From the NCBI GenBank assembly GCA_018267155.1, contig JAFDZE010000063.1, positions 1 through 36,372 on the forward strand: a stretch of 36,372 nt of DNA, written 5' to 3'. This DNA is from Bacteroidota bacterium. Its GTDB lineage: Bacteria; Bacteroidota; Bacteroidia; Flavobacteriales_F; PHOS-HE28. Shown one piece after another: positions 3,467 to 36,372 of this stretch (position 1 is its first letter; every line of letters begins with the position of its first letter). The position numbers and the translations under genes are program-made. The notes under the pieces are model-generated. The model saw nothing but the letters and a program-made list of their open reading frames with translations. It ran no database searches and was not told the origin of the DNA.

Positions 3467-4528
3467 TCACTCCCCGCCCTTCTCCTTCTTCTGCGGCTGA
3501 AGCGGGTTGGCGCTCATTCGCTTCCACCGCTCACGGTTCCGGATGATGTCCAGCCCGAGCCACACGGCGTGTCGAAGGCTGCCGGGGTCCGCCTCGTTCC
3601 TGCCGGCGATGCCCAGTCCGGTACCGTGATCCGGTGATGTACGCACGATGGGCAGTCCGGCCGTATAGTTCACGCCATGTCCGAAGCTGAGGGCCTTGAA
3701 CGGTGCGAGCCCCTGGTCGTGGTACATGGCGAGCACGCCATCGAAGTGCTTGTAACTGCCGTTGCCGAAGAAACCATCGGCGGGGTATGGACCCATGGCG
3801 TTGATGCCTTCCTCCTGCAGCTTGCGCACGGCGGGCGCGATCCGTTCCTTGTCCTCACTGCCGATAGCGCCACCATCACCCGCGTGGGGGTTCAGGCCGA
3901 GCACGGCGATGCGAGGCTGATTGATACCGAAATCCGACTGCAACGACCTGTTGAACAACCGGGCTTTGCCGATGATGCGTTCGGTGGTCACGGCCTCGGC
4001 CACCTGATTGATCGGCAGGTGACCGGTGACCAGTGCCACACGCAGCCCATCGCCCACCAGGATCATGAGCACGGGCGAATCGCTACCCGCAAGATGGGAA
4101 AGGAACTCGGTGTGACCCGGGAACTGGAAGCCGGCCAGCTGCATGCTGTGCTTGTCGATCGGAGCGGTCACCAGCATGTCGATCTTGCCCTGGCCGAGGT
4201 CCTGCGCAGCGGCTTCAAGGCTTTGGATGGCGTACTTGCTCTGCTGCCCGCTGGGCTTGCCCAGCTCGATGGGCACATCCTCGTCCCACAGATCCACCAC
4301 GTTGAATTTGCGTGGTATGATATCGTTCACGCTTTTGACCCCGTGGATCTGCATGTCATCCAGCTTCAATGCCTTGCGATGGTGGCTCACGGCTTTCACC
4401 CCGCAGTACAGCACGGGCGTGATGTCCTGGTGCATCCGGTTGTCCTCAAAGGCCTTCAGCACCACTTCGAGGCCGACACCGTTGAGGTCGCCGCAACTGA
4501 TGCCCACTCTCATCGTTTTCTCGCTCAT
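3467..4528 (-). CDS. pdxA: 4-hydroxythreonine-4-phosphate dehydrogenase PdxA
   Basis: 353 aa. NAD-dependent oxidation of 4-phosphooxy-L-threonine in the DXP-dependent pyridoxal phosphate pathway. The metal-binding histidines are visible as His170 (TGHLPI), His215 (NPHAG) and His270 (YHDQG), and the C-terminal FGHGVNYTAGLP and RTSPDHGTG motifs are intact. The start MSEKTMRVGISCGDLNG fits the family N-terminus, and AGGAAAG lies just upstream as a ribosome-binding site. It follows the M17 aminopeptidase gene on the same strand with a 48-base gap, so it is probably in one transcript. The product cofactor PLP is what SufS, on the other side, uses; no direct link is implied. Confidence 0.96.
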   Translation of the reverse strand: MSEKTMRVGISCGDLNGVGLEVVLKAFEDNRMHQDITPVLYCGVKAVSHHRKALKLDDMQIHGVKSVNDIIPRKFNVVDLWDEDVPIELGKPSGQQSKYAIQSLEAAAQDLGQGKIDMLVTAPIDKHSMQLAGFQFPGHTEFLSHLAGSDSPVLMILVGDGLRVALVTGHLPINQVAEAVTTERIIGKARLFNRSLQSDFGINQPRIAVLGLNPHAGDGGAIGSEDKERIAPAVRKLQEEGINAMGPYPADGFFGNGSYKHFDGVLAMYHDQGLAPFKALSFGHGVNYTAGLPIVRTSPDHGTGLGIAGRNEADPGSLRHAVWLGLDIIRNRERWKRMSANPLQPQKKEKGGE

Positions 4529-4540
4529 TCTTTCCTGGTG

Positions 4541-4557
4541 CGGGGCGCCGAGCCCCG
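4541..4557 (-). other. Small G+C hairpin in the pepA-pdxA gap
   Basis: CGGGGC and GCCCCG form a 6-bp stem around a 5-base loop between the aminopeptidase stop and the pdxA ribosome-binding site. It could attenuate or stabilise the mRNA; no U-tract follows. This is weak evidence, listed because it is the only structure in the gap. Confidence 0.25.
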
Positions 4558-4576
4558 GTGTGTTGCCCGCCCCCCT

Positions 4577-6010
4577 CTACCGCCCGGTGGCGCGGCGTTT
4601 GATGAATTCGTAGAACAGCCGTACCCCGACACCGGTGCCACCTTTGGTGCGATATTGATCCCGCTTGTTGATGAAGGCAGGTCCTGCGATGTCCAGGTGG
4701 ATGAAAGGCCTGGTCGTGAAGCGCGCGAGGAACTTGCCGGCGGTGATGGCCCCGCCCAGGTCGCTGCCCATGTTCTTGATATCGGCCACATCGCTCTTGA
4801 TCTCCTCATCATACTCATCCCAGAACGGCATGCGGGCCAGGCGCTCGTACACCTGCTCACCGGCGTCGTTGAGCCGCTCGAACTGCTTGTCATCGGCCGT
4901 ACCCATGGTCACGGTGCCGTAGGTGCCGATCGCACGCATGGCGGCCCCGGTGAGCGTGGCGATGGTGAAGACGAGTTCGGCATCGAACTGCTCGCCATAG
5001 CTGAGCGCGTCCGCAAGGATGATCCGTCCTTCGGCATCGCTGTTCAGGTTCTCCACGGTGAGCCCGCTGTGCATGCGGATCACGTCACCAGGGGCGTAGG
5101 CGTTCCCACCGGGCCGGTTGTCGGTGGCGGGGATCAGGCCGATGACGTGGACAGGAAGTTCCTGCTTGGCCACGGCCGAGATCGCACAAGCCACCGCTGC
5201 GGCCCCGGCCATGTCACACTTCATGGAGTCCATGCTGTTGGGCGTTGGCTTCAGGCTCAGGCCGCCGGTATCATATACCACGCCCTTGCCCACGAGCAGG
5301 ATGGGCTTCCTGTTCACCGCGTTCTTGGGCTTCCATTCCAGCACATTGAAGGTGGGAGGATCGATACTGCCCTTGTTCACGGCCAGAAGACCGCCCATAC
5401 CCAGCGCCTCGATACGGCTCTTGTCGAAGGTCTGTAGTTTGAAGCCCGCGTTCCTTGACAAGGTCCATAGTTCCTTGCCGAGCTGCACGGCGGTGAGGAA
5501 GCTGTTGGGTTCATTCACCAGGTCGCGTGCGGTGAGCACGGCTTCGCACACGTCCACCAATTCGCCCAGCGCCTTGCTGCTCAGTTCCGGAGCCAGGATG
5601 GACAGTTTTTTCAACGAACCGTTCTTGCCGGAGGTCTTGTACTTGCGGAACTCGTACGCCCCGAGCACGGCCCCTTCCGCAAGGGCGAGTGTGATCGCGG
5701 TATCATTCTGCAGGCTGATCAACTGGGCCTCATCGCGCTTCGCCAGGATCAGTTTCTGGACCATCTCGTTGCCCGCACAACGGGCCCTTTCGAGTTGGGC
5801 GGTCTGCCGACCCTCCCGGATGCGATGCACGAGCACCAACCTTCCGCTGATGTCACACGTGGCCACGTTGGCATCGCCATTGAGTTGCTCCACCAGGTAC
5901 TGGCGGTCGTTCCGCTCCAGTTCGAGCCCGCGCAGTTGGGTCGGATCCTTCAGCACGACCAGTGTGTCCTTGGTCGCACTCGGGGTTTTCGCTTTTATCA
6001 GGTTGATCAT
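4577..6010 (-). CDS. pepA: M17 leucyl aminopeptidase family protein
   Basis: 477 aa from ATG 6010 (MINLIKAKTPS); the open frame runs further upstream to 6088, but that extension does not look like coding sequence of this family. It is a cytosolic hexameric metallopeptidase that removes N-terminal residues from peptides. The two-metal site is complete: Lys242 and Asp247 in VGKGVVYDTGG, Asp266 in MKCDMAG, Asp325 and Glu327 in NSDAEGR, with catalytic Lys254 and Arg329. The N-terminal domain is less conserved, as is usual. It is upstream of pdxA on the same strand. The pepA symbol is by family, and substrate preference is not readable. Confidence 0.93.
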   Translation of the reverse strand: MINLIKAKTPSATKDTLVVLKDPTQLRGLELERNDRQYLVEQLNGDANVATCDISGRLVLVHRIREGRQTAQLERARCAGNEMVQKLILAKRDEAQLISLQNDTAITLALAEGAVLGAYEFRKYKTSGKNGSLKKLSILAPELSSKALGELVDVCEAVLTARDLVNEPNSFLTAVQLGKELWTLSRNAGFKLQTFDKSRIEALGMGGLLAVNKGSIDPPTFNVLEWKPKNAVNRKPILLVGKGVVYDTGGLSLKPTPNSMDSMKCDMAGAAAVACAISAVAKQELPVHVIGLIPATDNRPGGNAYAPGDVIRMHSGLTVENLNSDAEGRIILADALSYGEQFDAELVFTIATLTGAAMRAIGTYGTVTMGTADDKQFERLNDAGEQVYERLARMPFWDEYDEEIKSDVADIKNMGSDLGGAITAGKFLARFTTRPFIHLDIAGPAFINKRDQYRTKGGTGVGVRLFYEFIKRRATGR

Positions 6011-33007: not shown

Positions 33008-33817
33008 ATGCAGTACGACCCCGTCAAACGCCAGCTCGGTTCGGTCTTCAACCGATCGCCGCTGCTGCGCAAGTTCTTCTACGGTCTGCTGGACCTGCTG
33101 CTGCTGCGCGCCTGGCACATCCACAAGGAGTTGCGGGCGTGGGCGGTCGACAAGAAGGACCGCGCGCTCACCATTTACGATGCGGGCGCCGGCTACGGCC
33201 AGTACAGCTACTGGCTCAGTGGGCTATCTCCCCACTGGAGCATCTCCGCCGTGGATGTGAAGGAGGAGCAGGTGGCCGATTGCAACGCCTTCTTCCAACG
33301 CATCGGTCGTTCCCGGGTGACCTTCAGCGTGGATGACGTGACCACCCATGTGCGACCCGACACCTACGAACTGGTGGTGTGCGTGGACGTGATGGAGCAC
33401 ATCCTGGAGGACGAGCGCGCGCTGCGCTGTTACAGCACCAGCCTGAAGCCCGGCGGCATGCTCATCATCAGCACCCCCAGCGACCAGGGGGGCAGCGACG
33501 TGCATGGCGAAGGCGAGGGTTCCTTCATCGAGGAGCACGTGCGCGACGGGTACAATATCGACGACATCCGCGCCAAGTGCCTGCGCAACGGCTTCAGCAA
33601 GGTGGAGGCCCGCTACAGCTACGGCGCGCCCGGCAAGGTGAGCTGGAAGCTCAGCATGAAATGGCCCCTGCTGATGCTGAACGCCAGCAAGCTCTTCTTC
33701 ATCGTCCTGCCGCTCTACTACCTGATCGCCTATCCCATCGCGTACGTGCTCAACTGGTGCGATGTGGCCATGAAGCACACCACGGGAACCGGGCTCATTG
33801 TGAAGGCGTGGCGGTGA
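33008..33817 (+). CDS. Class I SAM-dependent methyltransferase
   Basis: 269 aa. Motif I YDAGAGYGQYSYWL (near residue 57), motif II ISAVDVKEEQ, and the post-motif VVCVDVMEHILEDE followed by LKPGGMLIISTPS define the Rossmann methyltransferase fold. A C-terminal hydrophobic stretch (LFFIVLPLYYLIAYPIAYVL) suggests membrane attachment, as in lipid or quinone methylating enzymes, but the substrate is unknown. It starts one base after rbfA and so should be on the same transcript. Confidence 0.88.
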   Translation: MQYDPVKRQLGSVFNRSPLLRKFFYGLLDLLLLRAWHIHKELRAWAVDKKDRALTIYDAGAGYGQYSYWLSGLSPHWSISAVDVKEEQVADCNAFFQRIGRSRVTFSVDDVTTHVRPDTYELVVCVDVMEHILEDERALRCYSTSLKPGGMLIISTPSDQGGSDVHGEGEGSFIEEHVRDGYNIDDIRAKCLRNGFSKVEARYSYGAPGKVSWKLSMKWPLLMLNASKLFFIVLPLYYLIAYPIAYVLNWCDVAMKHTTGTGLIVKAWR

Positions 33818-33902: not shown

Positions 33903-33943
33903 ATCCCTGCATTTTTACAATAGAATTATAAATTTGCAGGGAT
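33903..33943 (+). promoter_or_regulatory. -7 element inside a 9-bp inverted repeat at a leaderless start
   Basis: TAAATTTG (33929-33936) matches the -7 consensus TAnnTTTG and ends 5 bases before ATG 33942. The arms ATCCCTGCA (33903-33911) and TGCAGGGAT (33935-33943) are perfect inverted copies whose centres are about 32 bases apart, three helical turns, and the right arm overlaps both the -7 box and the start codon. This is the layout of an operator or autoregulatory site. The DNA here is much more AT-rich than the flanks. Confidence 0.5.
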
Positions 33944-35120
33944 GGCACACAATCCCTTGATAGACAGAGGGCTTCTTGTCGTTGTACTGGACCGACTGCA
34001 CCACTTCCCCGCAGCAGCCATTCTGGGCCCCCGGCAAATCGGCAAGACCACACTCGCACGCATGGTGGCGGAGCGCGTTGGCAGGCCGGTGTTGTGGCTC
34101 GATCTGGAGCGCCCTTCGGATCGCGCTCTCCTGACGGATCCGTACGCCTACCTGCCGCAACATGCCGACAAATTGGTAGTGATCGACGAGGTGCAGCGCA
34201 TGCCCGAGGTGTTCCAGGCGCTTCGCGTGCTGATCGACGAGCGCCGCCGCCCGGGGCGCTTCCTGCTGTTGGGCTCCTCATCGCCCGAGATCGTGCGCCG
34301 CGCTGCCGAATCGCTGGCAGGCCGCATCGCATACATGGACCTCTATCCGCTCAACATGCTGGAAGTCGGCATGGACCACGCACATGACCTGTGGCTGCGT
34401 GGTGGTTACCCCGATGCCTTCCTGGCCCCTTCGAACGGACAGGCGGCCCATGTGCAGCTGGCCATTCTACGTTCGTTGGTGGAGCGCGATCTGCCCCAAC
34501 TCGGCCTACCCGCCGCGCCGGAGGTCACGTTCACGCTCCTGCGCATGCTGGCATCGGTGCATGGCCAGCCGCTCAACATGAGCATGCTGGCCAAGTCCAT
34601 GGGCCTCACGGTGAGCACCGTGCGTACCTACATCGAATTCTTCGCGCAGGCGTACATCGTTTTCCGCTTGTACAGCCACCACACCAACACGCGCAAGCGG
34701 ATCACCAAGGCGCCTAAACTGTACATCACCGACAGCGGCCTGCTGCATGCGCTGCTCAACATCACGGAATTGGACCAGCTCCGCGCCACGGCCCTCATCG
34801 GGCTTTCGTGGGAGGGCTTCGTGGTGCAACAGGTACGAGCGTGGGTGGGCGGCAGGGCCGAACTGCACTACTTCCGCACACAGGACGGGGCCGAGCTCGA
34901 CCTGGTGATCACCCAGGGCACGCGGCCCATGGCGGCCATCGAGATCAAGACCACCGATGCTCCCACCTTGAGTCGCGGCAACCGCTTCGCCTTTGATGCG
35001 GTGGGCGCTCCCGTTGCGCTGATCTGCACACCAACTGCGCAGGACCATGCGCATGGCGGCGGGGTCCAGGTGTGCTCCTTGGGCACGCTGTGGGCGCATC
35101 TGGACCAGGCGCTGCGGTGA
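33942..35120 (+). CDS. AAA_14 / DUF4143 family ATPase
   Basis: 392 aa. Walker A GPRQIGKTTL (Gly29-Lys35-Thr36), Walker B KLVVIDEVQ (Asp82-Glu83), sensor region FLLLGSSSPEIV, then a winged-helix (LAKSMGLTVSTVRTYIEFF) and the DUF4143 C-terminal region. The C-terminus also keeps a PD-(D/E)XK-like pattern: Glu291, Glu318-x-Asp320 and Glu334-x-Lys336, so a nuclease-like fold is possible. The family is widespread in accessory DNA and its biological role is not settled. Start ATG 33942 is directly at the predicted transcript start, so it is probably leaderless. GC content is like the host. Confidence 0.9.
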   Translation: MAHNPLIDRGLLVVVLDRLHHFPAAAILGPRQIGKTTLARMVAERVGRPVLWLDLERPSDRALLTDPYAYLPQHADKLVVIDEVQRMPEVFQALRVLIDERRRPGRFLLLGSSSPEIVRRAAESLAGRIAYMDLYPLNMLEVGMDHAHDLWLRGGYPDAFLAPSNGQAAHVQLAILRSLVERDLPQLGLPAAPEVTFTLLRMLASVHGQPLNMSMLAKSMGLTVSTVRTYIEFFAQAYIVFRLYSHHTNTRKRITKAPKLYITDSGLLHALLNITELDQLRATALIGLSWEGFVVQQVRAWVGGRAELHYFRTQDGAELDLVITQGTRPMAAIEIKTTDAPTLSRGNRFAFDAVGAPVALICTPTAQDHAHGGGVQVCSLGTLWAHLDQALR

Positions 35121-35156: not shown

Positions 35157-35240
35157 GCGGCTATATTGGCGGCTGGGTTCGTAAAAGGCACACCCGTTCG
35201 GCGGATGAACGAAGATCTACGTCGATTCAACGTTAGCCGC
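35157..35240 (+). other. attC-like recombination site (left end of the AT-rich cassette)
   Basis: GCGGCTA at 35157-35163 pairs with TAGCCGC at 35234-35240, the latter inside AACGTTAGCCGC, which has the GTTAGSC form of integron attC core sites. Between them lie smaller stems such as CGTTC/GAACG (35195-35211). Size (84 bases) and ends fit an attC, but the left core reads GGCTATA rather than GGCTAAC, so it may be decayed or only a look-alike. No integrase is in the window. Confidence 0.4.
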
Positions 35241-35254
35241 AATTAAAACAGACC

Positions 35255-36295
35255 ATGAGTGTTGAGATAACTTTATATACTAAAAAATCAACCAAGACGG
35301 GATTGATAAAATTTCTGTCAGCAAATAATTTTAAGAAAGCTAGACATTTCATTGATGAGATGAACACGCCTGAGAGGATTGGTTTTATGTGGTTTGAATA
35401 TGACAACTATGAATCAACAACTGGTGTGGAGGCAACAGTAATAAAAATATCAGAGGAAGATAGATATAAATATAATTGCTCTGATTGGATATTACACACA
35501 AGAACACGAGCCAGTGGGTCATTTGAGGATAAACAGAAGCAGAATGAAATAATAAAAACTGCAAGACAGCAATTTGGAGGAACATTATACAACGATTGGT
35601 ACGGAACAAATAAATATACCAATTTAGATGACTACAGGAAGTTTTCTGCACTTGAAAAGGGTATATCAATTATAGCCAACGGTTCTTTGGAGAAACTCTC
35701 ACAAATAAGAAATTGCCTAAATGATTATAGGAACGAAATGTCAGAGACCCTGGCAAACATAAAACCAGAAAGTATGCGAACAATGCTTGTTTCAATAGAC
35801 CCAAGTATTGTTCTTTACAACAGTTTAATGCCTTTTCTAGTTTCTGTAATTGAATATTTTTTCGGACAAATCTTTGCAAATTATATAAAATACCATGAAT
35901 CTTCAAGGCGTATGTTAGCCGAAGAAAAAGTAAAGATTGAAATATCAGACGTTATAAGCATCTTAAAAAGTGAAGATTCCCTTGAACAAATTGTGATGAA
36001 GTCTTACAATTTTCAAAATCTTGACTCAATCAACAAAGCATTCAAAAAATACACCTCCATTGATATCAACGAAACTTTAAGTCAAAAGAAGAAAGTTAGC
36101 GGAAAGATAATTAGGGTTTTGACAAACCTAGAGGCCATATTGAACGCAAGACATAAGTTTGTTCACGAACTTGACATTGATTACTGTTTATCCAAAGAAA
36201 AATATTTAGTCAATGTTTCAACGGTGGAAAAGGCGATAGAGTTGACTATTCAACGAATTAAGAAAGATGGATTGAATATTGAAATTGAACACTAG
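35255..36295 (+). CDS. AT-rich accessory gene with HEPN-type RX4H motif
   Basis: 346 aa soluble protein, no signal peptide. The N-terminal ~110 residues are mixed alpha/beta and unrecognised. From about residue 125 it is helical (EKGISIIANGSLEKLSQIRNCL, then EQIVMKSYNFQNLDSINKAF). The C-terminal helix holds Arg299-His-Lys-Phe-Val-His304, an RX4H motif preceded by ILNA and followed by ELDID, as in HEPN ribonucleases of the RiboL-PSP / MAE_28990 class, where Arg and His are catalytic. HEPN proteins often act in defence, toxin-antitoxin or stress RNA cleavage, but no antitoxin partner is visible. Codon use and about 35% G+C (two lines counted) differ sharply from neighbours, a sign of transfer. 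ATG 35255 follows GCAATTAAAACAGACC with no clear ribosome site. Confidence 0.8.
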   Translation: MSVEITLYTKKSTKTGLIKFLSANNFKKARHFIDEMNTPERIGFMWFEYDNYESTTGVEATVIKISEEDRYKYNCSDWILHTRTRASGSFEDKQKQNEIIKTARQQFGGTLYNDWYGTNKYTNLDDYRKFSALEKGISIIANGSLEKLSQIRNCLNDYRNEMSETLANIKPESMRTMLVSIDPSIVLYNSLMPFLVSVIEYFFGQIFANYIKYHESSRRMLAEEKVKIEISDVISILKSEDSLEQIVMKSYNFQNLDSINKAFKKYTSIDINETLSQKKKVSGKIIRVLTNLEAILNARHKFVHELDIDYCLSKEKYLVNVSTVEKAIELTIQRIKKDGLNIEIEH

Positions 36296-36297
36296 CA

Positions 36298-36372
36298 GCG
36301 GCTAACACGGTTTTTGCGTCAGGAGGGCTGACGTGCAATCTTGGAACTTTGTGCTCCGAAACCCGCCCGAAC
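36298..36372 (+). other. Partial attC-like site at the right window edge
   Basis: GCGGCTAAC (36298-36306) starts 3 bases after the HEPN-gene stop codon. Then GGTTT (36309-36313) can pair with AAACC (36359-36363) leaving one bulged C before the outer CG pair, and CGTCAG/CTGACG form an inner hairpin at 36317-36333. The window ends in CCGAAC, just where the matching GTTAGCCGC core would be expected. This folds more like a real attC than the left site does. Confidence 0.45.

Follow-up and report, generated by a model that had tools for sequence, protein, structure and literature searches.

Background

The I2 domain of integron integrases is described as defining and as necessary for integron recombination (PMC9668308), has been termed 'essential for integron function' (PMC8138268), and was the feature by which a genome-wide survey picked integrases (PMC2426708). 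The IntegronFinder 2.0 survey recorded hardly any complete integrons in Bacteroidetes, Salinibacter being the case it named (PMC9024848). In a search confined to open PMC papers we found no earlier description of the system presented here. An integrase without I2 would be missed by surveys selecting for it, and this would account for the system having largely escaped them. Xer recombinases, for their part, act on dif and resolve chromosome dimers.

Here we analyze a window of 36,372 nucleotides from a Bacteroidota genome, the first 36372 bases of a contig of 36722 bases (G000:C124). Taken as a whole, the evidence is best explained if a gene near the window's right end is the cargo of a single integron-type cassette from a system whose recombinase has no I2, and we regard this as very probable. 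Like canonical chromosomal integrons with IntI (TIGR02249; IntI4, PDB 2a3v), this system has a tyrosine recombinase with PF13495 and PF00589, an attI-like stretch beside the integrase gene, arrays of AT-rich, mostly single-gene cassettes, and a hairpin site ending in AAC and GTT, with complementary cassette ends. Unlike them, it has an integrase without I2 (patch III) and with an extra N-terminal DUF5710-like domain, encoded upstream of the array and co-oriented with it, and a site of about 124 nt with a fixed mismatch at position 8 after GTT, the model of which misses canonical sites. Because the integrase fails the defining I2 feature, the system is classed as a variant and not as a canonical integron. 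XerA and archaeal-type Xer (NF040815; PDB 5hxy, 4a8e) have a similar catalytic core without I2, but the I2-less gene heads a cassette array and bears an additional N-terminal domain. Finally, CALINs and solitary cassettes inserted off-target at secondary sites resemble the window cassette, which stands alone with no integrase adjoining; however, the window cassette has just a single site, and that site is one of the I2-less system.

The window locus

The features of the locus are listed in Table 1. A first-pass annotation of the sequence had proposed an integron cassette with a sharply AT-rich gene between 9-bp inverted repeats. The inverted pair is indeed exact, and GC drops from about 0.64 to 0.405 over the gene. 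It had also been predicted that the left-end sequence would recur just past the window. There the contig reads NN (36373-36374), then CAAAGCCCGAAACCGTTAGCGGC, then a lolC/E-like gene; beyond the two N bases, which fall in the 3' half of the attC-like site, the sequence is CAAAGCCCGAAACC-GTTAGCGGC, and a GTT core begins at the 17th base past the window. The predicted core is therefore present, but it reads GTTAGCGGC and not GTTAGCCGC. Such a difference is to be expected, since whatever follows GTT is part of the adjoining DNA and not of the window cassette.

Table 1. Features at the right end of the window
Feature	Position	Strand	Basis or remark
Methyltransferase gene	33008..33817	+	Conserved chromosomal left neighbour of the cassette; Pfam, synteny
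AAA_14/DUF4143 ATPase gene	33942..35120	+	Accessory; synteny and Pfam
attI-like left flank ...GAACGAAGATCTACGTCGATTCAAC-GTT	35196..35234	+	Resembles attI of subtype-B integrases (L052, L061, L054)
Left cassette end GTTAGCCGC	35232..35240	+	Putative crossover inside GTT
Cassette gene, 346 aa, HEPN-like (R299-x4-H304)	35255..36295	+	
RHKFVH codons, candidate HEPN R-x4-H motif	36149..36166	+	Sequence
R'' end of attC-like site, GCGGCTAAC	36298..36306	+	Sequence, end complementarity
attC-like site, portion inside the window	36304..36372	+	Whole site G000:C124:36304-36391, closing in the GTT of GTTAGCGGC
Inner-stem 5' arm CGGTTTTTGCG	36308..36318	+	Partner (..CAAAGCCCG) beyond the window, two partner bases read N

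The cassette is solitary among ordinary chromosomal genes, with no array and no adjoining integrase. An assembly break within an array at the end of the window was considered and rejected, since the contig continues into the lolC/E-like gene. In several relatives, the methyltransferase and lolC/E-like genes are only 10-60 bp apart, which indicates that about 2.8 kb of accessory DNA was inserted here. The exact pre-insertion (empty) site of the cassette was not found in this locus comparison; the neighbours are adjacent in relatives. The AAA_14/DUF4143 ATPase gene beside the cassette is also missing at the same locus in relatives, and it was ruled out as a cassette since it is GC-rich and without attC. 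Its product matches the PADLOC candidate PDC-S01 (E 1e-83).

In the window genome, which is 82% complete, two copies of the site were found. The second (C29:4231) has a matching left end 167 bases upstream.

A family of attC-like sites

By DNA search, the element was detected in 12 of the 45 genomes of the genus; a covariance model built from 23 genus copies then located about 83 copies in 31 of the 45. In the phylum sample, the model found sites in 183 of 392 genomes. Its match in the window covers 36304-36391 (E 4e-13, this site being among the model's own seeds), in agreement with the foldable, attC-like site first proposed. An Rfam search gave no match. The site has the structure AAC-A-[10-bp stem]-[inner stem]-loop and then returns to AAACC-GTT; the whole genus site is about 124 nt long. 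The loop of genus sites (for example, L033 8079-8152) contains repeated TTTGTGCTtCnA-like motifs at near-constant length.

Single-sequence folding was set aside as proof of the window site because its fold z-score of -1.1 is not significant; covariation was therefore needed. The AAC/GTT ends are 97% paired, and the inner stem shows compensatory changes. In all, compensatory changes affect 12 of 17 pairs among the 23 genus copies, and 15 of 17 pairs among 89 copies from many taxa. In the 89-copy alignment, 93.7% of cells are paired versus 27-39% with the partners slid, although this alignment, unlike the genus one, was fitted to the model, which favours its pairing score. The compensatory changes support the hairpin. 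The 9-bp pair or one fold by itself would be unconvincing, but by comparative sequence evidence from the family the window site is far beyond chance.

Cassette ends and arrays

If the units are integron cassettes, each left end has to be complementary to the R'' of the same unit. Among single cassettes this is the case in 17 of 20 distinct ones, each scoring above every swapped-end control. The window cassette likewise exceeds every swapped-end control, which bears out its identification as a cassette; its ends match at 6/6 positions and have the A.C mismatch, after which come two pairs followed by a G.T. Within arrays, full 6/6 complementarity beyond GTT/AAC is seen for 75 of 99 consecutive pairs of sites, versus 24 of 835 non-consecutive pairs. 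The pairs with scores of 5 or 6 are complementary in about 99% of cases at positions 1-6, in 58% at position 7 and in 1% at position 8; the figure rises to 77-91% at positions 9-12 and is at background further out. The drop reflects a fixed mismatch (A against C) eight bases after GTT. Judged from these ends, each cassette circle would bear a 9-bp outer stem, the fixed A.C mismatch and about 4 further pairs. In canonical class 1 cassettes and in canonical arrays of the same phylum, the outer ends are uninterrupted over 11-12 bp. Long complementary ends were accordingly dropped as a peculiarity of the I2-less system, and among cassette-end features only the fixed mismatch sets it apart.

The largest array (G230) has 32 sites over 73 kb; others were found in G402 and G103. 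Array cassettes have a median length of 681 b and a median GC of 0.33, the units mostly carrying one short AT-rich gene, and 66 of 71 cassette ORFs point in the direction of the site. In one genome (L063 162-1230, G017:C30), two adjacent cassettes have identical attC sites and near-identical genes, likely a recent cassette duplication. The DNA after the last GTT is often GTTGAACGCCATnnCgC at array ends and beside some lone cassettes (L033, L039, L045, L053, L061, L063); this sequence may represent a preferred target or else the remaining right half of an ancestral attI.

An integrase without I2

The tyrosine recombinase that heads the arrays, in the genus and beyond, is 390-450 aa long and consists of PF13495, PF00589 and an N-terminal DUF5710-like domain. 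The catalytic R, H, R, H and Y are invariant. The spacing from GKGxKDR to HTLRH is 57-58 residues, compared with 99 in 12 canonical IntI from other classes of the same phylum; the missing I2 (patch III) insertion amounts to about 42 residues. In keeping with this gap, the TIGR02249 match is broken at profile positions 180-240 and stays below the cut-off, and the best whole-protein NCBIfam match is NF040815 (Xer; 230.6 versus a cut-off of 220 bits). The closest solved relative is the integron integrase 2a3v, which aligns on both sides of the I2 insertion, and 2a3v and XerA rank first for the predicted fold. In the phylogenetic tree, canonical IntI form one clade (100/100), which is joined weakly (85/82) and on long branches to I2-less enzymes of Spirochaetota, Nitrospirota, Bacillota and others.

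No canonical IntI exceeds the family cut-off in any of the 45 genus genomes. Across the phylum sample, 107 of 392 genomes have one, with just one such gene in the window's own class within the sample. The first-pass annotation had expected a chromosomal integron or a cassette array, with intI somewhere in the genome. The genome does contain a tyrosine recombinase gene, followed by an attI-like stretch, a cassette start and then the contig end (G000:C40); the integrase is not a canonical IntI, there is no array at the window, and an ordinary chromosomal integron is contradicted by the lack of I2. The attI of this integrase belongs to a different subtype from the window cassette's flank. That flank aligns to the attI of another integrase subtype with a score of 44, while the best of 1000 shuffles scores 21. 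Within integrase subtypes of the genus, the attI-like stretch from the integrase stop to the first GTT is conserved and measures 95-112 nt.

The link between integrase and sites is suggested by position and by co-occurrence. Arrays lie downstream of the recombinase gene and co-oriented with it. At 80 loci fetched by the integrase only, the 52 site matches with E<=0.01 all share the strand of the integrase gene, and 49 of them lie downstream. In the genus, sites occur in 23 of 26 genomes with the integrase versus 8 of 19 without a recognised one (p=0.0013), and in the class in 48 of 53 versus 26 of 50 (p=1.8e-5), both values being uncorrected for relatedness. Hosts include Flavobacterium, Winogradskyella, Algoriphagus, Chitinophaga, Pedobacter, Ignavibacteria and one Halonatronum. 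By comparison, the site model gave nothing significant in 205 kb around 12 canonical IntI genes, and no significant match in a class 1 integron.

In one genome (L033 2575-6089, G033:C2), the integrase gene is split by opposite-strand ORFs (3501-5604), an insert that looks like an IS66-type insertion, and cassettes persist downstream. I2-less integrases of similar architecture are also present in an Undinarchaeal MAG (two copies) and in Halonatronum (L146 and L199); the latter has a weak site downstream.

Possible mechanism and alternatives

By every feature that sequence can show, the I2-less system would work like an integron. The recombinase may join the two GTT ends of a cassette and so release it as a circle; the attC-like site would fold as a single strand and be recombined at GTT with attI or with attI-like chromosomal sites. 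All this would take place without the I2 domain of classical integron integrases, and the best candidates for replacing I2 in site recognition are the N-terminal DUF5710-like domain and the fixed A.C outer-stem mismatch. The window cassette was probably inserted in trans by an integrase into an attI-like chromosomal site between the methyltransferase and lolC/E-like genes. Alternatively, it may be what is left of a platform that has lost its integrase gene.

Could these be cassettes of ordinary integrons, with a canonical IntI overlooked in an incomplete genome? The 82% completeness of the window genome and the abundance of canonical IntI in the other classes of the phylum (107/392 genomes) would allow this. 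However, no canonical IntI passes the cut-off in the 45 genus genomes and a single one does in the class within the sample, the site model finds nothing significant around the 12 canonical genes or in the class 1 integron, and canonical cassettes of the same phylum have uninterrupted outer stems without the fixed mismatch. This alternative is already largely refuted, and we hold it to be highly improbable. A dispersed hairpin repeat, MITE- or REP-like, that trails genes by chance and is no recombination site is scarcely credible. Such a repeat would fit the solitary position of the window site and the finding of two copies in the window genome, but not the tandem arrays, most units of which hold a single short AT-rich gene, the constant placement behind an integrase, or the fact that a unit's left end complements its own right end and not those of its neighbours.

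The cassettes might also be mobilised by the chromosomal XerC/XerD, the adjacent I2-less recombinase having another job. Xer-like enzymes occur throughout the genomes examined, and mobile elements are known to make use of Xer. In the window genome, a XerD-like gene (G000:C110; TIGR02225 325.5 bits, cut-off 329.6; NF001399 322.4, cut-off 279) probably fills the dif/dimer-resolution role. Against mobilisation by XerC/XerD, it is the I2-less gene, with its subtype-specific attI-like stretch, that stands at the start of the arrays, and this gene co-occurs with the sites; we consider such mobilisation quite improbable.

With the I2-less integrase as the preferred agent, a broader proposal may be made: that I2 is dispensable for cassette capture via folded single-stranded sites, that an I2-less, DUF5710-fused integrase reading the outer-stem mismatch represents a second kind of integron, the common one in Bacteroidia, and that the I2-carrying IntI may derive from such an enzyme. 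We put this forward tentatively, its chance of being right in full being somewhat under even. Nearly half of the 392 sampled phylum genomes carry sites, some in arrays with tens of cassettes. Should the enzyme prove active, the I2 rule would be wrong, and a large stock of mobile genes, several of which resemble anti-phage defence genes, would have gone unnoticed; the question of how integrons arose could then be put to the test.

Cargo genes

The HEPN label originally given to the window protein (346 aa) is weak: the protein has an R-x4-6-H motif (RHKFVH, residues 299-304), and its match to Pfam RiboL-PSP-HEPN (PF18735) falls below the cut-off (21.3 versus 28.4 bits, E 2.7e-4). It may have a toxin or defence role. 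No homologue was found in 395 genomes of the class or in plasmids, no model matched this cargo in the defence-model search, and the structure model (pLDDT 40) is unusable. Among 64 array-cassette proteins scanned, matches include AbiU, AIPR, the AccI restriction enzyme, a CBASS-type 4TM effector, GmrSD, PemK and Cass2, and several of the array cargo genes resemble anti-phage defence genes.
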